Shown: piece after piece, positions 11,781 through 54,165 of the stretch
Layout: every line of letters begins with the position of its first letter
Numbering within the stretch: position 1 is the first letter of the stretch
The notes under the pieces: generated by a model
What the model was told of the DNA's origin: nothing
The model's database searches: none
Seen by the model: the letters and a program-made list of their open reading frames with translations, nothing else
Position numbers and translations under genes: made by a program
From: Dioszegia crocea
Taxonomy: Eukaryota > Basidiomycota > Tremellomycetes > Tremellales > Bulleribasidiaceae
Length of the DNA: 64,000 bases
Direction of reading: 5' to 3'
NCBI GenBank assembly: GCA_001600615.1
Contig: BCKK01000007.1
Coordinates: 340,431-404,430 of the forward strand

Positions 11781-14700
11781 CTACACCAGGGGCCATATCC
11801 AATACTCCCACTTCCCCTCTGAGTTTTCAAACCTAGACACAAGCTCACTTCCTCGCCTCGTCATCCCGATCCTCCCGGGGACTGCCCGTTTTTCATTCTT
11901 CTCCGGTGTGGCAGGAGAGGATGATAGATGGAGGTATGTTGCGCACTTCGCGACATAGCCTTTGATCTGGTCGATCCAGCTAGAATTCCCCGTTCCAGTG
12001 ACAGAAGAAGAATCACGCCCCTGTCCAATAGATGGCGAAACACCACTCCCATCCTGATCCACCACTTCAGCTCCAACCAGTCTCATCGGTCCAGTCTCTG
12101 CGCCGCCTTTGGACCCAGGCGTAAAGACCCCCGGAGCAGGTTCAGCTTTCAAGACTGTTCCTATCGCAGCAGTTCCGGACCCGCCTGGTTTCTCAGTATT
12201 GGCGGGCTGAACCTCTACTTTGTTCTCCAGAGCTACCATATTGACCGCCGCTGCAGGCGCGGGGGCGGGCGCTGGGTCGCAATCATATTCCGACTCTGGA
12301 GCTGGGGGAGGGACGACGGGAGGGTTGACAACAGGCGGGGTCGCAACTGGAGGTGTGGCGATAGGGGGTTTGACAACTGGAGATTTGGTCGTGGGGGGTT
12401 TGACAATCGGAGAAGTGGTCGTAGGGGGTTTGACGACCGGGGAGGTGGTGGCCGGAAGTTTATTACCTAGAAGAACTACTCCAGTGCCTCCCGGAGGAGC
12501 GCCGACCGGGGAAGCAGCGGAGAATGCCGGGACGGCTGGGGTAGCTGGAGGCTTGACCGCTGGGGAAGTGACAGCTGGGTTAGGCTTGAGCGAAGCAGAA
12601 GGCACAGGTGTAAAGGTCACAAAGCCAGTAGCGGACGTGAAAGTTGGTGTGGCTTTGTCGACAGTAGGGGGTTTATCGACTGGCTTGTCTACCGCCGGTT
12701 TGCCCATTGGAGGTTTATCAGCCTCGGGGGATGAAGGAGCAGGTGTGGACACCGGGGGAGGGTTGACGGGTGATGTAGGCCCGTTGGCTGGTTTGTCGAC
12801 CTTGACGATTGCAGGTTTACCAGCTGGGGGTTTACCGATTGGGCCAGAATTAGCGGAAGGTGCAGATGATGGAGGGGTACCGATCGGTGCAGTCCCTTGC
12901 CCTCCATTAGGCGGGACATCCTCCTCGCCGGAGCAATCCTGATCCTCAGGACCTTCCCCATGTCCGCCACTCTGACCACGTCCGCCCGATCCGGCCTCAT
13001 CTCCACCATCACAGTCATCTTCTTCTTCTTCTTCTCCATGTCCCCCGCTCTCTTGTTTCTTGCCCCCTTTACCGCCCTTGCTCTTACCCTCTTTACCGCC
13101 TTGATCGCCATGGCCACTTTGACCGCCTCCTGGACGTTGGGCACTCTTTTCCTCTTTCCCCTCCTCATCCTCACCACCACCACAATCGTCCTCCTCGCTC
13201 TCTCCACCTGGCGCATGTGCAGCCCCACCAGGCATCCCACCTTGAACCTCCTTCTCCTCCTCCCCATCCCAGTCCCCGTCTCCACCATCGCAGTCCTCTT
13301 CAACCGCCTTCAGCCCCTCTTTCACTTCATCGCTCCCTTTCTCCCCCGACCCATCGTCCTTCTCAATAGCCACAACCCCCGCCTTCGCGGAGTCACCACC
13401 CTCATCGTCCTTAGGCTTCGGAGCAGCATTCAGACTCGTCCCTATCGATCCCTCCTTATCTGTCCTTCCCGGGCGCACAGTCGATTCCGCAGTACTAGGG
13501 ACAGACGGTCCTCCCTCCGACTCCGGGATTCCATCCCATTCACCTTCCTGAATACCCTGCTCGGTTCCTCCAGGCGTATTTCCGGCCTTTTCAGGTATAT
13601 CAGAGTCGGATTCCTCGCCGCAGTCCGAGTTGCCGTCATTGGGCGGAGGTACAGCCTCCAAGACTGATCCTAGGGATGCCTTCCTCTCCGCTGCTACCGA
13701 CGCCAGGTCGGATTTGCCGCTTGCTGGACCGCCCTCAGATGTCGGTATTCCATCCCATTCACCTTCCTGGAGCCCCTGAGCAGGTTCTTCCATCCCGCTT
13801 CCATTCGACTGAGGATCATCAATGACCTTAGCTAGGACATGCCCGGGACCTGAAACCACAGGGCTGGGCACAGGGTTGAGGGGAGTGACCGCCGCCAGTA
13901 CTGCGCCGCCAGGCATCGCCGTTACCTCAGGCGGAGCTTGGAAAGGGACAGAAAGACCCCCAGTCGCGGTGAATGGCTGGGGTGTAGAAAGTGGGGATGT
14001 AATTTGGAGCATGGGGAACCCGGCGCTGAATACTGGGAAGGTCGTCACGGCTGGTACAGGAGGGACGACCGAGGAAGGGGGAGGTGGAGGTGGAGGGGTG
14101 GGAGTTGAAATTGGAGGAGTGACGGGTTTGGGCCTTTCAAGTGAGATGGTAGGTCGGGGTTTCTCAGCATTGGGAGTTCCGGGTGGGTCCGGTGTAGTGG
14201 TTGGCTCAATAGCTACGATCGGGGTGGATTTCGATGTTGTAGTTGTCGAGTCTGTCGTTGGGGTGGGCTTCATTGTAGGAGGGGTTTTGGTAGTCTGTAA
14301 ATTCAGCATTGTTCATATGGTACTTCAAGGGGAGAACTTACTACAGGGACTTGAGGGGTGATCCTGGACTTTGTAGTCTCCGGTGTGAATGTAGGAGAAG
14401 TAGGCGTAACAGGCTGACGTACAGACCGAGTCGTGATTGGCCTCACAGCGGACGGCATAGTCTCCACCACGGGCTCAGTCCTCGTAGTCACAGATACCAT
14501 CTCCGTGGTCTCCTTCGTCGTTGGACGAGGACGAGGAGGGGGGTTCAGGCGCGTAGGGGTAGGTTCGACAGCAGGGGCAGTGGGTTTGACCACCTCCGTG
14601 GCGTCGATAGCAGTAACGAGATTTCGTGTAGTGGATGATGTATCAGGCTCTAGAGCGACGATTGGAGTGACAGATTCGGCCGATGTAGGGCGTGGTACGA

Positions 14701-16246
14701 AAGTCGGGGTCTTGATGGCTTCGGAAGAGGTAAAGGGGTCGTCGGCGACAGTGGGGATAAGTCTGAGACGTGTAGTTGATGTGGATGGAATAGTAGGGGA
14801 TACCTCGGGCGTGAAGGTGGAAGTGGGTCTAGGTCGAGTTGTAGTCACTCTGGACCGGGTGGTAGTTTGCTCAATAGCAACGATTGGCTCAACCTTCGTC
14901 GAGCTGGGAAGGGAGACACGGGTAGTCTTGGGTTGGACTAAGGTAGTCTCCTCCTCAGTCTCGCTGGAGGTGGAGGTAAATGTAGAGATCGGTTCAATCT
15001 CGGAAATAGTCGTAGATTTAAATCGACGAGTGGTGGTTGGCTCAATAGCGACGATTGGCTCAATCTTCGTCGGGCTGGGAAGAGGTGTGCGTGTAGTTTT
15101 GGGCCGGACTACGATAGGCCGATCGTCCTCAGTCTCGCTGGAGGTGGAGGAGGTGGTGGTACTTGGATCAATGTGGGAAGTAGTCGCAGATTTAGATCGA
15201 CGAGTGGTGGTAGGCTCGACAGCTACTGGAACGGCGGGCGACGTGGGTGTTGTAGAGTCGGAAGGTGTTGTCGTAGACGAGATGAGGTCTTTATTCGTAG
15301 TATCAACCGTCTTAGTCTCAGCCGTCTCGGTAGAGACAACATCTGAAGGCTCAACGGCATGAGTCAACGTCGTCATTGGGGTAGGTTTCGGTTTCTCCGT
15401 AACGGAAGATACCGTCATGTCCGCCTTCGTGTCCGCCTCCGTTTCGACTGCTACGACAGGTACGACAGGTTTGTCCGAGGTTGATGTTGGGGTCGGCGCA
15501 GGAGCGGGTGGAAGAGGTGTGGAAGGTGTAACAGTGATGATTTCCGTCTTTGTCTCGAGCTTGGTTTCAACCTTGGTCTCAATTGCGACAACCTGTGCGA
15601 CCGATTTAGGGGGATCGGGTTTGGGCTCTACTGGCGCAGGAGCAGGCACAGGCGCTGTAGCAGCCTTAGGACCCCCACCCGTCTGAAGTGGGAAAGCCTT
15701 GGACCAAGCTGCGTCACCCGCTGGCGAAGAGCTAGGATCGGGCAACGTCAGGCCTGACGGTAAGAAGGCATTCTGACCACTGATCTCATCAGCCAAGATC
15801 TCCAATAACCGCCGTAGAGGGGAAGGAAAGACATACCAAGACAAAGGTTCCCATGTTGTAGTATCAAGTAACAAACCTGCCGTCCCCACATCCCAAATCC
15901 TCCCTTCGGCACCTTTCCATTCCAAAGATCGGCCCTCAAGGTATCCAGCTTGAGCAGGACTCATACTTAATGCACAACCTGGAGTGGCACCGTTGAAATT
16001 TGCGTATATGACCATGGAGGATGCCTGGCCGCTACCACTGGAAGATAAGGGCCAGTCGAGTGTGGTTGATGAGCCTGGACAGATTGGGCGGCCGGTCGTG
16101 TATGTGTTGCCGGTTGAAGAGTCGATTTGGGCGATTACGATGCATGATGTTGGTGAGAGAAGGGTTATGCGGCCTGCGGAGAGGACTGGGGAGATGAGGA
16201 GAGAGAGGAGGAGGGAGAGGATGAGGGTGGGCGTGGGGGAGGGCAT
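11781..16246 (-). CDS. Giant secreted Thr/Pro-rich mucin-like protein
   Basis: Two exons (14342-16246 and 11781-14294) join across a 47-nt intron to about 1,470 residues. A signal peptide (TLILSLLLSLLISPVLSAG) is followed by an about 160-residue folded domain (LLSPTSCIVIAQIDSSTG, GQASSMVIYANFNGATPG, TWEPLSWYVFPSPLRRLLEI). Then come about 450 residues of Thr/Ser/Pro repeats with recurring VAIEPTTTRR-type units, a Gly/Asp/Glu-rich region with six single cysteines each next to Asp, another Pro-rich stretch (VVKPPTTTSP repeats), and a basic C-terminus with a possible amphipathic helix (SWIDQIKGYVAKCATYLHL). No GPI signal is visible. The composition predicts heavy O-glycosylation and a cell-wall or extracellular location. 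I know of no named family for the N-terminal domain. Internal duplication (GEWDGIPxSEGGP twice) is clear. Confidence 0.85.
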
Positions 16247-17098
16247 TGTGCGTGGGTGTGTAGAGGGGGGAAGGGGGAAGGGGTTCGATAAACCTGTTAT
16301 CGATGCGAGTGAAAGTTGTAGAGAGTGTGAGTGTCGTAGTGCTCGTCACGTCTAAAAAGGGACAGGAATGTGGAGAAGGAAGAGCAAACGAGGGGGAGGG
16401 AAGAAACAGGATGAGGTGGAAAGATGAAGGAAAGAAGATAGGACAGGGGGGGAATGAGAAGTGCTCCCACCCTTAATGACCCCCTCCGTATTCACATCTT
16501 ACCGCTTCCTTCAGACTAGTAACCCCTTAACATCTCTTACCCCTTATTTTTTCGCTGACAACAAAGCTAGCGAGAATCAGAAGGCGCTTTCGTCCAAAGG
16601 ATATTCCCCTTAAATCGCCGTCCTACGGAAGGCTGAGAATAGATCCATCAGTATGTGAGTGTTTCTTGATTGACCTCGGACGAAATTTGGCGGAAGGGGA
16701 CCTAGGCCCTTTGCCCTATGGAGGATCTGCTTACTTTACTTACTTTGTCCCGGGATGTATAGACAAGTCAGCTATACAGTTAAATAAATTTGGCTGTACT
16801 GGGTGGGAAAGCGGGACAAGCGTGGGAAAGTGCGGCTTCCCGGCTAAGTCCGAAGCGGTGGTCCATGGCCAGGGCAAGCTCCAGGGTGTAAGCGGGGTGA
16901 CCAAGACCTTATCATAGTCAGACTAAGAGATACATCGCCTTAGTACGCCATACAACCCCCAAGCAGCTCCAGAGAACCACAACGGCCAGTCTGCATCACA
17001 AGTCGAAGCGCCAAAGTGCCCTCATTTTGCGCTAGGCTTCAACTCGAACCTAACCCTCCCATTCCCGCCCCCAATCATAACTTGCCACCCACCCCACA
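16247..17098. promoter_or_regulatory. Divergent intergenic region, mucin-like gene / Yippee
   Basis: 852 bp between two divergent starts. Purine-rich on the plus strand near 16250-16460. An open frame at 16666-16917 has no further support. No RNA gene seen. Confidence 0.5.
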
Positions 17099-19803: not shown

Positions 19804-20185
19804 GGTGCGTCGATGCGATGACTGATGAATTACGAGAATGTAAGGGGACCGGGCACGGTTTGTCTTGGCACAGCGGTGTCGCCGAGCTTGTATCACAAAA
19901 GGTTGAAGGCGAGATAGGGCGAAAGGCGCTGCTCAGCTGTCTGAGAATGCGTATAGCTCCAAGCTGCAGTGTATAGATGCAGAGATGATACAAGGTAAGT
20001 ATGTAGGTGAGGTATACGACCGGACTGATCGGATCCTACGCCAAGGGCGGGGCGCCGAGGAGAAGTGATAACGACGAAGGAAAATACCACGTCACGCGTG
20101 TTGCTCCTCGACCTCCACCCCCGCGCCCGCTCCTCTCCAAAAGTCACATCTAGCTCATTGTATACTGCCCAGCCTAATAGCTGCC
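19804..20185. promoter_or_regulatory. Divergent promoter, USP gene / mannosyltransferase
   Basis: 382 bp between divergent start codons. Open frames on both strands are short and unsupported. Confidence 0.5.
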
Positions 20186-21968
20186 ATGCCCTCAGCTCTA
20201 CTCCAGGCCGCACGGAATCGCCCCGTCCTATCCCTCACCCTCCTCTTCACCACCCTCCTCCTACTCACAGGCCTCCACCGCCCCCCACCCACCTCCCACA
20301 CATTCCAATTCCCAGGCCTACTCCCCTCCCATCTCAACACCGACACGTTCTCATCCGCCAATGCCGTCCATAAATCCCCACATCTGCGACGCGAGCAAGA
20401 ACGTCGTTATGCCCATTTACGAAAACCTCACATACCAGCCTCAGACCGTATACATCCAAACGTCACGGGTAAATATCTCTTTACTACCTTGACGAGAAAT
20501 ATCGAATCTCAACTTCCCGATTTACTCAATACAATCATTGTCCTCGTTTCATTCTTAGGTGCCGAACATGTCAGGTTTAGTATATACGAAGGACCCTCTT
20601 CAGACGATACACCCAACATTATTCGAGATACGCTTATACCCCTGTTGAAACGGATGGGTGTACCGGATGATGATGTGGTGATACGTTTAAATCAACCCGA
20701 TATTGATTTTAATACAGTCAATAGGATACAGGCGTTGGCGGTATTGAGGAATGAGGCTTTGCAGCCATTATGGAAAAAGAAGGCGTGGGGGGAGAGTACG
20801 GTGGCGGTTGTGTTCTTCAATGACATTTATTTGCGCGCGAGGGATGTGTTGGAATTGCTGCATCAGCATACGAAGGCGGGGGATAAGGCAGGGCTGGAGA
20901 CGGCCATGACGACGGGTTTGGATTGGTTTAGGAAACATCCGGAACATTACTATGATGTCTGGGCGGCAAGAACGGTGAGTCTACGGCCTCATAGAGGGTT
21001 GGAGCTGATTCTCCAGATGGATGGCGACCTCTTTTACCCAATAAACGAACCTTACTGGACACCCTCTGACGAATTTCTCACCTCCCATCCTAAATCCAAA
21101 GACGCCTACGACCACCTTCGACCCTTCCAGGCATTCTCATCTTGGGCCGGAATGGCAGTTATCGCTGCGACTCCCTTCCTACCGCCGCACAGTCTAAGAT
21201 TTAGGAGGTCAAATCCGCATGTTAAGGAAGAGTGCGCAGGGTCAGAGTGCGAGATGATGTGTAGGGATATGTGGAGTATTGGCTGGGGGAGAATACAGGT
21301 CGTGCCGAGTGTGCAGGTGAGTTGAGGTTAGGTCTGATTTGGGTGTGAATGCGGATGCCGAGGTCATGAGACGTGAGGGTCTGACTAATGGGATGCACGA
21401 TATGGAGGAGAGGATGAACGTTGAAATTTGGTCTGGAGCTCTGGACGTTCCACCTGGGGTTCTGGCTATCGAGTTTGTGCCGCACGCGTCTCGGTGTCTG
21501 AGCGAGGGCCTGGTTCTAGAGCTGCGACGAAGTATTGGGAGAGGACGATGGGTACTGGTTCTAGTGGAAATTGGAGAGTTCGAATGTGGACTCACGGAAT
21601 CAGCGATCCGAGACTGGGTCTTTGAGCTTGATCTAGAAATCACACCGGGTCTATGATATCTCTGAGAATCTGTGCTGATGCATCAGGTGGCATATGACCG
21701 AGACGTCGCTCGAGATATTGTCGAGACATTACCGGCGCAAATGAAGGATCTAAATTTCTTCGAGGAGACTCCAAATGAATGGGACGACCATATCATAAAT
21801 TGGACTACAGAGTGAGTTGCGATCTGGACTTTTCGCCCAGTATCGAGCTGACGGTCCAGTCCACCGAGCCAGGTCAAATGTCATCCTTGGCCTGAAAAAG
21901 CTGGGCTGGATGGTAATGTTTGGGAGTCTGTAGAGTGGGGACCACCTTTTGTTGGGTATGGGCAATGA
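20186..21968 (+). CDS. CAP59/CMT1-family alpha-1,3-mannosyltransferase
   Basis: Family members are Golgi type II glycosyltransferases; in Cryptococcus they include CMT1 and the capsule proteins CAP59/CAP60. Three exons (20186-21316, 21687-21811, 21860-21968) give 454 residues. The N-terminus has a short cytosolic part and a signal anchor (LSLTLLFTTLLLLTGL). The catalytic domain shows GKYLFTTLTRNIESQLPDLL, FSIYEGPSSDDTPNI, NRIQALAVLRNEALQPL, VVFFNDIYLRARDVLELLHQ, AFSSWAGMAVIAATPF, FRRSNPHVKEECAGSECEMM and CRDMWSIGWGRIQVVPSVQ. The end VKCHPWPEKAG is also family-like. Intron 1 is 370 nt, far longer than most introns here. Which member it is (capsule, wall or glycolipid) cannot be told from the sequence. 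Confidence 0.9.
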
Positions 21969-22134: not shown

Positions 22135-23554
22135 CTACGTGGGCTTCGCCTTGCAGGAGAAAGTGACCTCCTTGGCAGAATCGGTAGTAACTGGAACATG
22201 ACCGTCCCCAGCCACCGCTTGAATCACAAATATCGCATCAGCCTTCTGCGGCTGACTCGATACGCGTCTGTTCACTGTGCACTGATAGTATCAGCATGAA
22301 GCCAGGCCAATATACACCCTCGAAGCCAAACCGTCGACGACTCACAATTTCTGTGGTGACCGTACCAACTACGCCAACTGCGACGCCGACGGTATACTCA
22401 ATCTCCCATACGATAGGTGGAGGGGATTTGGTGCCCTCTGCCTGGAGTCCGAGTCCTGCCTGGCCTTTGATGTAGGTCCCTCCCATGGGCGTGTCCTTGT
22501 AAGACATGGGGCTACCTGATTCACCGGTGGTACTGTCGTAACCTACAAAATTCTTGACGGTTACACCAGGACCCAAGACGAGGTAAACGGCAGGTAAAAC
22601 CGTAGGTTTGTCATCCACGCACTCAAACGACATATGCTGCACGTTGTCAATATCCAAAGTGCCGCGTACCAATGATCTGGTTGGCCAATGGTAGAAGAGG
22701 AAGGTATTGATGTTGATCTTTTGCTTCACGGCATCTTTCAAGGAGACTGTGCACTGCAAAGTCAGGAACAGCACAATTGTTACCGAAACTCCAAGGAATT
22801 GCCTACTTACGATAGTGTTTATGGTGGTCTTTGCCTGCGTCACATAGAAGGCTTCCCAAACAAAATTAGAGTCGGTGCCGAGCCCGATTTGCGCCCTGTG
22901 CGTAATGGCCTCGCTTGCCTTGAAGGGTGCAACTGCCATATTGTTCTGACTGACTGGGTCGTAGGCTTTGAAATTCTTAATTGTGAGCCCCTCACCAAGA
23001 TACACATTCATGAGTGGCAGGCTTGTCGAGGAAGCGGTCGCTGTAGAAGTACTCGCACTGATCGATGTACTTGACGCTGTAGCTGTTGATGTGGAAGGCG
23101 CAGCTCGAGGAGGGACGACGGCAGAGACCGGCTCGCACTTGACGCTAATCTCACCCAACGGAACCATGACCCAGGGGGCGATCGTGCCATCAGCTCCGCC
23201 GGTGAAGCTCAAAAAGACGTCGGCCTGTTGCGGGGCGTTACCGGCACGTCTACTTGCTGTGCACTGTACCATCAGCGCCGTTAAGATTTCCGTAGATTCG
23301 CTTGCTGAGGTACAGCGCTCAGGTAAAGAACTCACGCTGCTGTACGACTTTTGACTGTTCGCATCCCTGTAGGTTATGTGCCAGCTATAGGTAGCGGTAT
23401 TGCTCGGCCACTGACCAAGTCCGAGCTGCGACTTGAAGTTGTAAGTAGTGCCTGCCAATTTGTACTCTGCTGAAGGGAGAAGCTTATGGCTAGCTAAGTC
23501 ATATTCTTCAAAGTTATTGATTGTAACACCTGTGCCGGGGTACGCACGAATCAA
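22135..23554 (-). repeat. Three protein-level module repeats in protein A
   Basis: Module 1 about 23129-23554, module 2 about 22610-23014, module 3 22135 to about 22591. They are diverged in sequence but share the opening GVTIxNF motif, the intron position and the two flanking cysteines. Confidence 0.75.
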
Positions 23555-24226
23555 GGGAGGGTTATTTGCTGTGAGAGGAATCGGTGCATCTGTATCGGCA
23601 CCGCTTTCCGAGCCTGTTGACTTGCCCGTGTCCGATGCACCTGAAGCGGCTCCGGTGGGTGTTCCAGCGGCGGCAGTCGCGGCTGAGCTCGGTATTGTGG
23701 CGGCAGGTGTAGTTTTGGCTTTGGAGGGCGTAGTCGCGCCGGCTGTGACTGGGGTCGCTGGCGAAAGTTTGGAGGACGGTGTTACAGAGGGTGTGAAAGC
23801 GGTCACGGCCGGGACACTCTGGTCAGGTGTGGGAGTACTGAGATCAGAAGTGTCATCGCTGGTGTTGTCGGACGTGTCACCCCCAGCTGCAGTGTGCGGT
23901 CCGGGTGCAGTGATTAGTGTAGGTTCAGCTCCTCCTGCCGCTGGAGTCTTGACTGGCGTCTGAATCGGGGTGGCTTTGTTGATGGAAGTTGGAGTCGCCG
24001 GGGTAGTAGCTATATTATCAGCTCTGATTCTTCCGAGTCAGATCGACATTCTTCGACTTCGCAAGTTTCTAGTCCACTCACTGATAGGCCGCGCCGCGTC
24101 AACCCATCGGGTATTAAAGACCGTCACAGTGATATCCCCCGCCGCGGTGCCATCCTCGTTCACCCGTACCGCTAACGCGGCAACGAGGTGGAGCCAAGCG
24201 AGAGCTGTAGTAGATTTGAGTAGCAT
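22135..24226 (-). CDS. Secreted three-module protein A (unrecognised module)
   Basis: A signal peptide (LKSTTALAWLHLVAALAVRV) is followed by a short segment, an intron, and an about 170-residue Ser/Thr/Pro/Ala linker. Three copies of a roughly 120-residue module follow. Each opens with a hydrophobic strand and GxGVTIxNFxxYD (YPGTGVTINNFEEYD, LGEGLTIKNFKAYD, LGPGVTVKNFVGYD). Next comes a GLG plus aromatic strand, then a phase-0 intron, then CT[AV]S/N and a closing strand ending in Cys (ISVKCEP, MSFECVDD, VTFSCKA). Introns are at 23264-23335, 22754-22810 and 22282-22345. A beta-sandwich with one conserved disulfide per module is likely (inference). The stop (ACG TAG) is 167 bp from the convergent mannosyltransferase stop. 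I do not recognise the family. Confidence 0.8.
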
Positions 24227-24951
24227 CTGATTGATGAGTAAACTAGTGTCGATTGCTCTCTCGCAAATGGGTCAGTCTTGAAATATAGGCAATGTTGGGA
24301 TTTCTGATCAGCCCATCCTGGCTCTTAGCGCGTTCCTCGTACGATTCAGCAGAATTTGCCCTGACCTACCCCTGCAAATTCACCCCTTAGCCCTTGGAAC
24401 GGCAATGTGTCCTTTGATTCTCTCCGTGATACAATACAGCTCACATGGGTACATTCTGCATCCTTTCGGACTTTGATCCGCAGGATCCTTCACACTGTTA
24501 GACATAGCTGCTGAAACGCTTTCGCCCCGGGATACGTCTGAGTCCTGGGATCGATCAGCAAGGGCTGAAATCTGGATAGCGCTACTCACATAATTCTCTG
24601 AATCCTAAATCGGACGTGCATATTGCAATAAATCGCAGGGTTGCCCGTAAAGCATGAGACTATGATCATTTTCTGCAGAGGGTTAGGGTCAGCATGGCAC
24701 GGACTATGGAGCAGAGACACTCGCCACGAGTAGCAATTGATAGCAGATCTGATGCGATCAGATTTGTCTGAACTGAGATCGGAATGCCCAGGTCTCCAAA
24801 GACGGCTCAGATTTGTGTAAAGGCTGAGCTTTTGAGCTTGGCTACACGTAGCATGATTAGTCTCAATGGCCGAAGGCGAGATATCAGCGTTACAGAGTAC
24901 ATGGTATGACACAAATAGAGGACACTCAGATCAGATAGTATAGAGAAACGA
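24227..24951. other. Intergenic region between module genes A and B
   Basis: 725 bp holding the promoter of A and the 3' UTR of B. Two overlapping minus-strand frames (24380-24589, 24586-24912) are weak and show no module similarity. I see no third module copy here. Confidence 0.45.
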
Positions 24952-25952
24952 CTACACAGCGGGGAAAGCAGAGCTTTGCAACCTCGAAGTAAACTCGTTA
25001 GACGGATGGTAGGAGACAGTACGATCGGGTTTAAACTTGAGACTAACGTCGATCTTTTGCTGGCGCCCAGCCTCCAGATTAGTCAATCGTATCTATGTGA
25101 GCGTCAGCACATGCATCGACGTAACGGCCGCAAACTGTCGGTCTTAGGGGTAGTAAGACGGATATATGACTCACGTAACCTCCCGTATTCAAATCGCCAC
25201 CTGCGAAAATGACTTGCAGATCGATAGGCCCTTCATTGACCTGGCCATCCGGCCCGGGCCCAAATCCGAGGATCGTCATGTAGGTCGGGCTGGTTCCATC
25301 GACTGGTCCGGAGAATGAGGTGACGCTACCGAGGGTATTGGTGCTCGGGAAGAATGGTCGGATATTGCCGATGGTCACGCCGCGTTCGGGCATTATATAG
25401 ATCAGCGGGTAGATTTTAGTGATAGGGGAGGCCGCGGCTGAGTTGGACGATGTTGCCGTCGCTGTTGCAGTTACAGCGGGGACAGCTTGCGGAGCGGAGC
25501 AGTCGACGAGGATCTCGCCCTGCGGGGATATGATGACATCTTCGGGCGTAAAGTGTAAATTGACATCGACCTTCGATTGGGCATTGCGGTCGCGCATGTT
25601 TACTGTACACTTTATGGGTCAGCTTACTGCTAATCCGAACTAAATACCATAATGACATGGATGAAGAAAGGGGTCATAAAAGTCCTTCATGCTCATGTAG
25701 ACACTGAAAACTCACGACTCTTGTACTAGCGGTGCCACCATTGCCGGCAGGATAGCTGACTGTCCAGACGAAAGGCCAAACATTGACAACGTTTGTCGGC
25801 GCATTTGCCGTTCCTAGAGTTGTAATGTAGGATGGACCCGCAGGATCGGCTGATTTCGCAAATGAGGTAGTTGTCCCAAATGAGTTGTTGGAAGGGAAGA
25901 ATGGACGGATATTGGCGATTGAGATGCCCGTGTCTGGGTAGATATAGATAAG
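24952..25952 (-). repeat. Two protein-level module repeats in protein B
   Basis: Module 1 about 25490-25952, module 2 about 24952-25405. Both contain the NIRPFFPS core and the same intron position as the modules in protein A. Confidence 0.75.
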
Positions 25953-26425
25953 AGGCAGAGCAGCGGTCGATGACGGATCAGTGACGGACGTTGACGATGA
26001 TGCCGGTGTTGTCACAGGCGTCGTTGCTGCAGTGGTCGTGGGAATGGGCGGAGGAGTGTTCTGGGCGGGAACGATGACATTTGTAGTGGTAGGTGTGACT
26101 ACTGGTGTAGAAACCAATGTCGTTCCGGGTTCCAACGCGATTGCAGGGGTTGTCTGTCCAGCAGGGCCAGGAGCATTTGGGTTGATTGCAAGTGGATTCC
26201 CCGTCGGAGGCGTGATTGATGGCAGAGGTATGCCTGTATGCGTCAGATATCGATTCTGCGCAACGGAAAAATCGACCCACAAGATGTAGCGGTCGCCGTG
26301 ACGGTCACTGTCGTAGTGACGGTCATGGTTATCGCGGGGACTGGATTGCCATCGTTGGGACCTCGTATAGTCAATCCAGCGACGAGATGAAGTAAGCCGA
26401 TGATACTGGCGGATTTGACGAACAT
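24952..26425 (-). CDS. Secreted two-module protein B, paralogue of A
   Basis: A signal peptide (FVKSASIIGLLHLVAGLTIR) resembles that of the downstream neighbour A. A Val/Thr stretch (ITMTVTTTVTVTATATS), an intron and a Thr/Pro linker follow. Two modules come next, opening LIYIYPDTGISIANIRPFFP and LIYIMPERGVTIGNIRPFFP. Each is cut by a phase-0 intron (25610-25715 and 25093-25174). The first resumes with CTVNMRDRNAQSKVDV and ends ILVDCSAP; the second resumes with IRLTNLEAGRQQKIDV and has lost both cysteines. The two modules are closer to each other than to those of A, so they probably duplicated within this gene. The last exon runs to a TAG at 24952-24954. Secretion is predicted; the function is unknown. 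Tandem orientation with A suggests an ancestral gene duplication. Confidence 0.8.
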
Positions 26426-26941
26426 CTCTGGCTAGCAGCTATTGCTTATAACGGTTTATGTCTTTGATCTAGAAGTTAGGTAGCAAAGATATACTCGCGA
26501 GTCGGCTTTGACTCTTGCCACCACACCGCTGAGACCTGCAGCCAGCTGGATCACCATCAAGATTACCTCGTTACCCCTTGAAATCGAATCCTCCTTTGAT
26601 TTCTCCCTTGGATAGCTCCTGCGCCCTGGATGATGGCCACCATCCTTTGTGCAGACTAGCCGTCACCCCTGAAAATGGTCAGATACATTCATGAAACCCC
26701 TTGTGGACACGGAGTGGTTTCGACTGTGAATCATCAGTCAACATCGGTACACCCGTGTTCTGCTTGCGTTAGGGGGTCTAAGGTCAAAGGCATCAGTGAC
26801 TGCATTTCTGATGTATGGATATGCGAATGACTACAGTGCTGAAGCATATTCAGCTAACATTCTCCGTGCAGGAAAGAGCAAATTTACCTCGTCTCTACAT
26901 ATCCATTTACTTCTTCTTCATTTGCGATCTCTTCCCTTGCC
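26426..26941. promoter_or_regulatory. Promoter of module gene B and RSM27 3' region
   Basis: 516 bp between tandem minus-strand genes. No gene supported. Confidence 0.45.
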
Positions 26942-27481
26942 CTAACTCATCAGCACAATCCCAGACATATATCTCAACCAAGACTCACCCTTCTTAGGTG
27001 GACCTCGTCCCATCTCCTTATTCAGCGCGACCTCCTCTCTCCTCGTTCGTTCCTTCGCATCATCAAGCCATCCCGCTCCCTTTATCCGCTCAACCTCGAC
27101 GAATCCAGGCTCAACAATCTGAGATCGACCCAGCATCAACCCCTTATTCGCCCATCTCACCCCTTGGGCCTCTGGTCCCGGTGTGGCAGAGTACGCATCC
27201 CTTTGTCCACTTGACGCAGCATCGATCACTGAATTCTTGTATGCGCTCGCCCCTTCTCCTCTCCATCCGCCATAAGGATTCCAGGGGACCAAGGCGTTCA
27301 GTGTCCGCAATGAGGGCATTCGGGGATAGTATTGGATCGCCGAAGGCCCCACTAGTCGGCGCTTTAGGTATTTGGCACCTGTACGCTGACCTGTGGGATT
27401 GTGTGCCGTGTGGAAGATTTGTGAGCGGAGAGAGGAGAGGATAGTGCGGACATCGGCGGGAGGGGAGGGGCGGGGAGGCAT
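26942..27481 (-). CDS. RSM27: Mitochondrial small-subunit ribosomal protein mS33 (RSM27)
   Basis: A single exon of 179 codons. The mS33 signature is at the N-terminus: TILSSLRSQIFHTAHNPTGQ, RTGAKYLKRRLVGPS and IQYYPRMPSLRTLN. This part binds in the head of the mitochondrial small subunit. The family core is about 100 residues; the extra C-terminal region (VRWANKGLMLGRSQIVEPGF, ERTRREEVALNKEMGRG) is a usual fungal extension. The start MPPRPSPPADV was preferred over an ATG 27 codons upstream because family members start close to the SLRSQIF helix. Confidence 0.85.
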   Translation of the reverse strand: MPPRPSPPADVRTILSSLRSQIFHTAHNPTGQRTGAKYLKRRLVGPSAIQYYPRMPSLRTLNALVPWNPYGGWRGEGASAYKNSVIDAASSGQRDAYSATPGPEAQGVRWANKGLMLGRSQIVEPGFVEVERIKGAGWLDDAKERTRREEVALNKEMGRGPPKKGESWLRYMSGIVLMS

Positions 27482-27915
27482 AGTGAGAGGAGGATCTAGC
27501 GGAAGATGGGTCGATTGATCTGGGTGATTCAAATTGGCGAATCTGGACAGCGGGATTTCCAAGCTAGTACTGTGCTGAGAATCAGTCTGAGTGGCGTAGA
27601 TGCTATGCGATATCGGTCAGATGTATGGGTGTATCTCAAGCAAAAGTTGGGTTCAATGGTTTCAAGTCTGGATTGCCACGTGGCTGGTTAAACATAATTC
27701 AATTTACCTGTCTTGTGTACGGGAATTTACGGCGTTATAGAAATCCCAGTCTAGCAATTTCAGACTTTGGCCTCCGTGGAACCGAAGCCATGATGTACAA
27801 CCATGCATCGAGCTGATTGATACGCCATCAAATAGGAGACTACGATGTCCCCTGGAGATAGCAAAAATCTCTATATCGCGACGAACAAAGTCCACCAGAA
27901 GCCACGCCATCCCGC
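27482..27915. promoter_or_regulatory. RSM27 promoter / WTAP-like gene 3' region
   Basis: 434 bp between tandem minus-strand genes; short plus-strand frames are unsupported. Confidence 0.45.
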
Positions 27916-48399: not shown

Positions 48400-49662
48400 T
48401 CATGCCACGACAGATTCACGAAGTTTGCATCCACTGAGACCCAAGAAACAGCCCTTCCTACCTAAAAGAATGTCCTGATACCAAATCGAAAATTCCTCGT
48501 CCAGACCCATTCGGCAATCCCCATCATCCAAATAGTAACCCTCCTGGCAGGCCATGGCAATGCACACGCCTCGTTCGCACGTACTACCGCCGAGTGAAGT
48601 GCCCACCATACTGGTACAGCTTTACCATCAGCAACAAACGTGTGAACGCAAGACTAAACCCACTCTGTTCCTCGAACATCAGAGGACGACCCGTAGAGAC
48701 CATACGCGCAGCCCCCGCAAGATTCGAGCTCATTTGCGGTATCAACACACTGCGATGGTCAGCATTGCGCCCCTGACATCACTTACCTCATAGCCGTGAT
48801 CATCTCCGGCCTGCACCCTACAAGCGCTGAGGCCCGCCGGGCAGTACTCCATGTCACCGCCTTGACCCAGCCGCCGCCTCTGCCTCTCCTCCGCTTGGCG
48901 CATGTTCCTCCGCGCCAGTCCCGACGCTTGGGCGGCTGCAGGGTCGTGAGAAAAGGAAAAGAACTGCCCAGCTGTACATGACGGGCTTCTACCGGGTCCG
49001 AATTGAAAGTTGTACGGGGGGGCGTCATTGACGCAGTAGCATTGGAAGGTGTCGGCGGTGGTGTCGAACACGACGCTGGCAGTTAAGAAGGTACGACATT
49101 GCTGGAAGCAGTCTGGGATCGTGGACACCGTGGTAAAGGTGGAAGCGTTTGGGGGTTTCGTGCAGAACAGCTCCCCGAAGGTGGTGGTTCGTTTGACATA
49201 CTGCCGGTCAGTTTGAGAGGCGACCGGTTCACGAGGCCGCCCCGCGGCCGACACGCTCACGCACTGTGCGACTAGGAGGCGATGGCTCACTTTGACGTCT
49301 CCCATGTCACACGTTCCATCAAAATTCGAAGCACCTTTGATATCCGTGGCCTTGAGCTCGTTCGGAAAGCAGGTACACTCTATCGCCACATTTTGTCGTG
49401 ATTCGTTTTGAAGATACTTCACCCCGACATATTCGGTAGGGCAGTAGTCCAGTCAGTCAGCCATAGGTATACACACAGATCTTGTCCGAATAAAAGCGGC
49501 GAGAGAGGAAACACGCACAAAGCAGACATCTCCATTATCCTGCGGACCACCGCCCGGTATGACAGGAAGGCTGCTGTATGGAATAACCGTGGATTGATAG
49601 TTCGCCGCGTTGGCCCAGGTGGCGGCCGTCGTTGAAGAGATACAAGCGAGATTGTTTCCCAT
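48400..49662 (-). CDS. CPL1-domain Cys-rich protein (capsule-related family)
   Basis: The C-terminal half has the CPL1-type pattern: YCPAGLSACRV, then after an intron CVDTANELESCGGCAYGLYG, GTDMVGTSLGGSTCERGVCI and AMACQEGYYLDDGDC. This matches the family's CP..C..C / ELESCGGC / GxD / C..G.C...C..GY order. In Cryptococcus neoformans the secreted Cpl1 belongs here. Upstream lies a WSC-like Cys region (TIPDCFQQCRTFLTASVVFD, TFQCYCVNDAPPYNF) and a first part ECTCFPNELKATDIKG. The start MGNNLACISSTTAATWANAA shows no convincing signal peptide, so a 5' exon may be missing or secretion may be unconventional. About five exons. Many conserved Cys suggest an extracellular disulfide-bonded protein. Confidence 0.75.
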
Positions 49663-53480: not shown

Positions 53481-54165
53481 ATGATCTTCGCTCTCCTCTC
53501 TCTTCTTACCGTCGCCGCCGCGATCAGGGTCACCTCTCCCACTTCCGGGTCGGTGTGGGACAGCAGTACCTCCTCGCAGACCATCAGCTGGGAGGCAGTC
53601 AGCTCTGACCCCAACAGCTTTGTGATTCAGCTCGTGAACCAGGTATGTCTCTTGTACAAGTCGCGCTGATTTCAGGCCGGCTTCCTCCCCAACTCCCCCG
53701 TGACCATCTCCAACAGCCAATCTAGCCAGACCGGTACTCAATCCGCTACCATCACCTACCCCGGCGGTACCTGGCCCGTCGGCACCGCGTTCCAGATCAA
53801 CCTCGTCACGTCTACTGCTGGTAATCAGGCCATCCTCGCGCAATCTCCCCAATTCAACATCTCCAACACCGGTGCTGCGGCCCAAACCTCCAGCGGTGTT
53901 TCCCCCATGACCCTGTCCCAGAGCGCGACAACGAGCTTTGCCCCCGTCTCTCCTCCTTCCTCCACCGGCGTGACTGTGACCAGCACCACTGCGGGTGATG
54001 CCAGCGGCGGTATTCCCAATGCTGTAAGTTGTGCCTTCTTCGTCTAGATCTGCGCTGACAAACAGGCCACCAGCTCCCGCGCTGCCGCAACCGACAAGGC
54101 GTCTCCCTCCGCTTTGATCTCCCTCCTCCTGACCGGTGCCGCTTTCTTCGGTGTCTTTGCCTAGT
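53481..54165 (+). CDS. Kre9/Knh1-like Ser/Thr-rich GPI-anchored protein
   Basis: Three exons give about 200 residues. A signal peptide (MIFALLSLLTVAAAIRV) leads into a Kre9/Knh1 N-terminal type beta-domain: TSPTSGSVWDSSTSSQTISW, FVIQLVNQAGFLPNSPVTIS, ITYPGGTWPVGTAFQINLVT, ILAQSPQFNIS. A Ser/Thr-rich stalk follows and the protein ends with a hydrophobic GPI-addition signal (SALISLLLTGAAFFGVFA) after a small-residue omega region (SSRAAATDKAS). Family members are cell-wall or plasma-membrane proteins, some involved in beta-1,6-glucan assembly. It lies 138 bp downstream of ERO1 on the same strand. It is a strongly supported secreted surface protein; its exact role is unknown. Confidence 0.85.

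Follow-up and report, generated by a model that had tools for sequence, protein, structure and literature searches.

In a 64,000-nucleotide stretch of contig BCKK01000007.1 of Dioszegia crocea (the window), two adjacent minus-strand genes, g1 and g2, were found to encode proteins with a signal-peptide-like start, a serine/threonine/proline-rich linker and two (g1) or three (g2) copies of a repeated module, confirming the architecture proposed in a preliminary description of this DNA. Both genes are predicted splice models; the exon coordinates below include the stop codon, hydropathy peaks are nine-residue means, and the linker edges were set by the analyst's choice.

24952..26425, minus strand: gene g1, 412 residues, two modules, four exons (26425-26281, 26233-25716, 25609-25175, 25092-24952)
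26366..26425, minus strand: g1 signal-peptide-like start, first 20 residues, hydropathy peak 2.53
25959..26365, minus strand: g1 linker, 118 residues, serine plus threonine 34%, proline 19%, containing intron 26280-26234
22135..24226, minus strand: gene g2, 608 residues, three modules, five exons (24226-24082, 24009-23336, 23263-22811, 22753-22346, 22281-22135)
24167..24226, minus strand: g2 signal-peptide-like start, first 20 residues, hydropathy peak 2.44
23561..24166, minus strand: g2 linker, 174 residues, serine plus threonine 32%, proline 13%, containing intron 24081-24010

An early lysine followed by a hydrophobic stretch was revealed by hydropathy at the N-terminus of g1, g2 and a third gene, g3, which lies beyond the window, and serine plus threonine account for 31-34% of the three linkers. 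No glycosylphosphatidylinositol (GPI)-like hydrophobic C-terminal tail was seen in g1 or g2 as judged by hydropathy, with peaks of 0.86 and 0.97, respectively, over the last 30 residues. The last 30 residues of g3 reach a hydropathy of 2.13 in a short stretch, after which the protein has a polar end.

The five modules of g1 and g2 are 119-132 residues long, each being encoded in two halves.

25484..25958, minus strand: g1 module 1, halves 25958-25716 and 25609-25484, with the conserved phase-0 intron between them
24955..25411, minus strand: g1 module 2, halves 25411-25175 and 25092-24955, without either module cysteine
23117..23560, minus strand: g2 module 1, halves 23560-23336 and 23263-23117
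22604..23020, minus strand: g2 module 2, halves 23020-22811 and 22753-22604
22138..22597, minus strand: g2 module 3, halves 22597-22346 and 22281-22138, scoring best with g3 module 2

Pairwise identity among these five modules ranges from 19 to 38% (10 pairs) and, between modules of g1 and those of g2, from 19 to 31%. A shuffle test of the module pairs gave 0/500 in nine of the ten pairs and 2/500 in the remaining one, and we conclude from the sequence comparison that the modules of the two genes are homologous. In a tree of all seven modules of g1, g2 and g3, support was obtained for one of the four inner forks, joining the two g1 modules (95/93); because this was the only supported fork, no duplication history is claimed.

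A conserved cysteine pair was present in six of the seven modules, both cysteines being absent from g1 module 2. All six cysteines of g2 lie within its modules, two in each at aligned places; in g1, two lie in module 1, module 2 is free of cysteines and a single one stands in the linker. Six modules thus retain both residues and one has lost both together, a pattern which suggests that the two form a disulfide within the module.

The exon layout is conserved as well. A phase-0 intron was found at one aligned place in all seven modules, directly 5' of the first conserved cysteine in six of them and 5' of an isoleucine in g1 module 2, and the first intron of each gene is in phase 1 and lies within the linker. 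The ten introns of the three genes are 34-106 bases long and have GT...AG ends throughout; each carries a branch-point-like CTRAY word 7-11 bases before the acceptor end, the background in the window being 578 of 8414 AG sites with such a word in the preceding 25 bases. Since the length of five of the seven module introns is not a multiple of three, the halves of those five modules join in frame only via splicing. Two g2 introns, 23335-23264 (72 nt) and 22810-22754 (57 nt), are multiples of three without stops. A 599-residue open frame on the minus strand crosses both; their retention would leave the reading frame intact and could yield longer isoforms.

The third gene was revealed by a genome search with g2 as query, which recovered g1 together with a match outside the window at position 431317 of contig C7. 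Gene g3 (contig C7, 430550-431731) is located 64 kb away and encodes 358 residues with two modules; it shows the same type of start, linker and intron places, its introns being 34, 34 and 37 bases long, and the highest score of its module 2 was obtained against g2 module 3 (z = 29.3). When g1, g3 or the g2 tail was used as a single query, two of the three genes were found in each case; a consensus query found all three. Neither the single nor the consensus queries, for which the best candidates were scored, gave a further credible family gene in the genome. A profile search of the window plus 200 kb around it returned the known genes only, the rest being at an expect value (E) of 0.88 or worse; these flank matches (E >= 0.88), as well as two in the window at E = 2.4 and 3.5, were judged to be due to chance. 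The same judgement was made for a match on contig C4 (E = 0.0658), which lies on the opposite strand of a long frame resembling, by eye, a translation-factor-type GTPase. The family is somewhat larger than first described: it comprises at least three genes, a lower bound set by the scoring of best candidates only, and at least seven modules, and its exon layout and an upstream word are common to all three genes.

Comparison of g2 module 3 with g3 module 2 revealed 49, 51 and 83 differences at first, second and third codon positions, respectively, among 122 codons. This pattern reflects constraint on the protein, with third positions near saturation.

The upstream word, ATCAAAGGA, occurs on the coding strand 5' of all three genes, at -175 (g1), -192 (g2) and -95 (g3). 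In the window, it is part of the following elements.

26574..26600, minus strand: upstream element of g1, ATCAAAGGA, 12 bases, AAGGGG
24390..24418, minus strand: upstream element of g2, ATCAAAGGA, 14 bases, AAGGGC

Among 2000 Markov sets, a nine-letter word common to three 300-base stretches arose in two, and among 2000 random window triples in five. A narrow composite pattern (ATCAAAGGA, 10-16 bases, (A/C)AGGG(G/C)) has four sites in the 20.57-Mb genome, three at the family genes and the fourth on contig C5; as it was derived from the three family sites, it was bound to recover them, and the information lies in its rarity alone. Because the word was kept although coding third positions are near saturation, regulation common to g1, g2 and g3 is suggested.

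To relate the module to described domains, the seven modules were searched against profile and structure libraries. In Pfam, run with the HMMER filters on, only single matches were obtained at E up to 10, all below the curated cut-offs, and in NCBIfam, a library built for bacteria and archaea, no family was found at E <= 1. A profile search of the PDB with the five g1 and g2 modules gave no match at E <= 10. With seven modules, three SAKe chains were returned at whole-chain values of 2.2e-10, 1.7e-5 and 4.1e-4; these chains, which we take to be designed repeat proteins, accumulated weak repeat matches of which no stretch passed alone, and were rejected as an artefact. Two weak matches of the same search, Sso1 (1.7) and a DSCAM chain (0.91), were taken as chance.

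Using the module parts of g1 and g2, but not g3, as queries against 5.8 billion proteins, no match was found at E <= 1 among the candidates scored, which numbered 3745 in one search and 7994, those sharing most words, in the other. This search depends on exact shared five-residue words, so that distant relatives may be missed. As a control, the CMT1-like neighbour of the two genes retrieved 47 proteins from the same database, including matches from Tremella, Vanrija, Naganishia, Saitozyma, Cryptococcus, Cutaneotrichosporon and Kockovaella, which implies that the database includes Tremellomycetes; no identical protein of the host was among these matches. When contigs of prokaryote genomes were scanned with g2 module 3, 34 pattern matches were obtained, none of them a relative, and among the literature matches listed, titles and the beginnings of abstracts describe no such module. 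The preliminary description had called the module unrecognised. Neither Pfam, NCBIfam and the PDB (seven modules) nor the protein database (g1 and g2) gave a match to a described domain that could be accepted, and that designation stands at the sensitivity of the searches made.

Two structure models of the module reached a predicted local distance difference test score (pLDDT) of 48.0 and 44.8 and a predicted template modelling score (pTM) of 0.37 and 0.36, respectively. Both were built from unspliced window sequence and carry an intron-encoded insert; in the alignment for the first, the second half of g1 module 2 was misplaced, and that row was dropped from the later alignment. The elements assigned in both low-confidence models are strands, except for a three-residue helix in the first. 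Model confidence is too low for naming a fold.

Taken from sequence features, our preferred reading, to which we assign a probability of roughly 0.4, is that g1-g3 encode secreted matrix proteins, possibly O-mannosylated, of a small and diverged family that may be restricted to one lineage. Several observations weigh against it. The compact beta fold anticipated in the preliminary description is not shown by either low-confidence model, and g3 carries extra cysteines (its module 1 has four and its module 2 three); g1 and g3 each have a further one in the linker. The codon pattern is weaker between g1 module 1 and g1 module 2, with 58, 52 and 75 differences at first, second and third positions of 125 codons. 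The upstream word was chosen after the sequences had been seen, and a looser form of the upstream pattern has 21 genomic sites, three of them at family genes.

Lineage-specific or orphan secreted families are frequent in fungi. That the genes instead belong to an ordinary secreted family that evolves fast, occurs in many Tremellomycetes and was missed by the five-residue-word search is a serious possibility, only just short of an even chance. The host is distant from the database proteins, as evident from the control, where the closest named relative of the CMT1-like protein was 46% identical (Tremella mesenterica) and the best overall 65% across 67% of the query. With g1 and g2 modules as dissimilar as they are, relatives could share few words, and g3 was left out while in one search the word-richest candidates alone were scored; however, neither candidate set yielded anything at E <= 1. 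A further explanation, compatible with a matrix family and quite conceivable though tentative, is that the module has diverged strongly from a known beta-sandwich superfamily of the immunoglobulin-like or fibronectin-III-like kind, in which case its sequence family would be new but its fold would not. The modules resemble such domains in their low-confidence strands (six in the first model), their single cysteine pair and weak tails of the Pfam search, each covering one module or module half, none of which is significant. Three of the five tails, IL2RB_N1 (0.085), Cep192_D6 (0.11) and ICAM_N (0.2), presumably belong to the beta-sandwich class, and the DSCAM chain points in the same direction, but the other two, DUF2963 (0.18) and DUF7618 (0.19), are of unknown function, and when the first model was used for a fold search, 108 matches reached E <= 10 and none reached E <= 0.001. 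In the classical immunoglobulin pattern, a tryptophan stands between the two cysteines, whereas the tryptophan of the modules, where present, precedes both.

The strong divergence of the tandem copies would also fit secreted proteins with an interaction role, in mating or towards another organism, in place of a matrix role. ATCAAAGGA includes CAAAGG, given in PMC3248468 as the core of ACAAAGGGA, the pheromone response element of smuts. The STE3-type receptor loci of the genome, with three matches each, lie on contigs C2 (1194583-1195543) and C11 (287550-288634) and not on the family contig C7; a stretch of 951 bases surrounding and preceding the best STE3 match contains no CAAAGG on either strand and no ATCAAAGGA, and 1001 bases at the second, weaker match contain three CAAAGG and no ATCAAAGGA. 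Because CAAAGG is absent from the stretch at the better STE3 match, a mating link is not supported and none is claimed, and the interaction explanation is considered unlikely. The loss of both cysteines from g1 module 2 could be read as a sign of decaying or unexpressed genes; the open frames, the GT...AG ends and branch-point-like words of all ten introns and the coding pattern of change between g2 module 3 and g3 module 2 speak against this, making it very improbable.

Ser/Thr-rich fungal mannoproteins and wall proteins are the comparison class for g1-g3. The signal-peptide-like start and the long serine/threonine/proline-rich stretch are shared with them, whereas hydropathy shows no GPI-like tail in g1 and g2, and the unrecognised repeated module stands where such proteins have a known catalytic or binding domain. 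The Kre9/KNH family (PF10342) likewise comprises secreted proteins of fungi that combine a small beta domain with Ser/Thr-rich parts; in Pfam, the seven modules gave no PF10342 match at E up to 10. The genome has two PF10342 matches, one of them in the window at 53535-53861 on the plus strand (E = 1.1e-7, above the cut-off), with one stop within the match, which was read across introns.

The family is flanked by the following genes, both outside it.

20072-21325, plus strand: CMT1-like mannosyltransferase, one long open frame (PF11735, 3.1e-51)
26945..27616, minus strand: mitochondrial ribosomal protein, open frame on the other side (PF08293 MRP-S33, 2e-16)

A cell-surface or matrix role had been argued in the preliminary description from the capsule-type mannosyltransferase next door. 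This argument was found to be weak. Named relatives of the neighbour in the control search are mostly CMT1, and the six PF11735 matches of the genome were grouped by the analyst into four loci. According to PMC9765558, CMT1 deletion left capsule formation of C. neoformans unaffected, and O-glycans of the cmt1 mutant were without apparent difference (data not shown in that paper). Because CMT1 can be deleted without effect on the capsule, adjacency tells little about module function, and inferring function from neighbouring genes was rejected. The link between CMT1/CAP59 mannosyltransferases and the modules is one of neighbourhood only, the modules giving no PF11735 match.

Elsewhere in the window, the open frame 14306-16345 (minus strand) has a signal-peptide-like start, a very long Ser/Thr/Pro-rich tail and no Pfam match at E <= 0.001, and is absent from the module profile matches in the window. 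A cysteine-rich open frame at 48745-49452 (minus strand) also gave no Pfam match at E <= 0.001.

Returning to a secreted matrix family, each module would form a small domain of beta strands only, with a single disulfide closing it, and the linker would be O-mannosylated in the secretory pathway and act as a stiff spacer. Either the protein would be released, or non-covalent contacts would keep it in the wall or the polysaccharide matrix, and there modules in tandem may bind a glycan or surface partner through avidity; g1, g2 and g3 would be switched on together via the common upstream element. A surface or matrix role is plausible on these predicted features, and free secretion would fit g1 and g2 equally well, because they have no GPI-like hydrophobic tail. 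It is doubtful that the module represents a new family of domains that has a fold of its own and is confined to one Tremellomycete lineage, with the three co-regulated genes forming one secreted system whose tandem, disulfide-closed modules bind a lineage-specific polysaccharide or partner.

The finding alone settles no open question. If the reading is true, it would provide an entry point to a secreted module family missed by present libraries, with a clear repeat unit, a diagnostic exon layout and a common promoter word that makes co-regulation testable.

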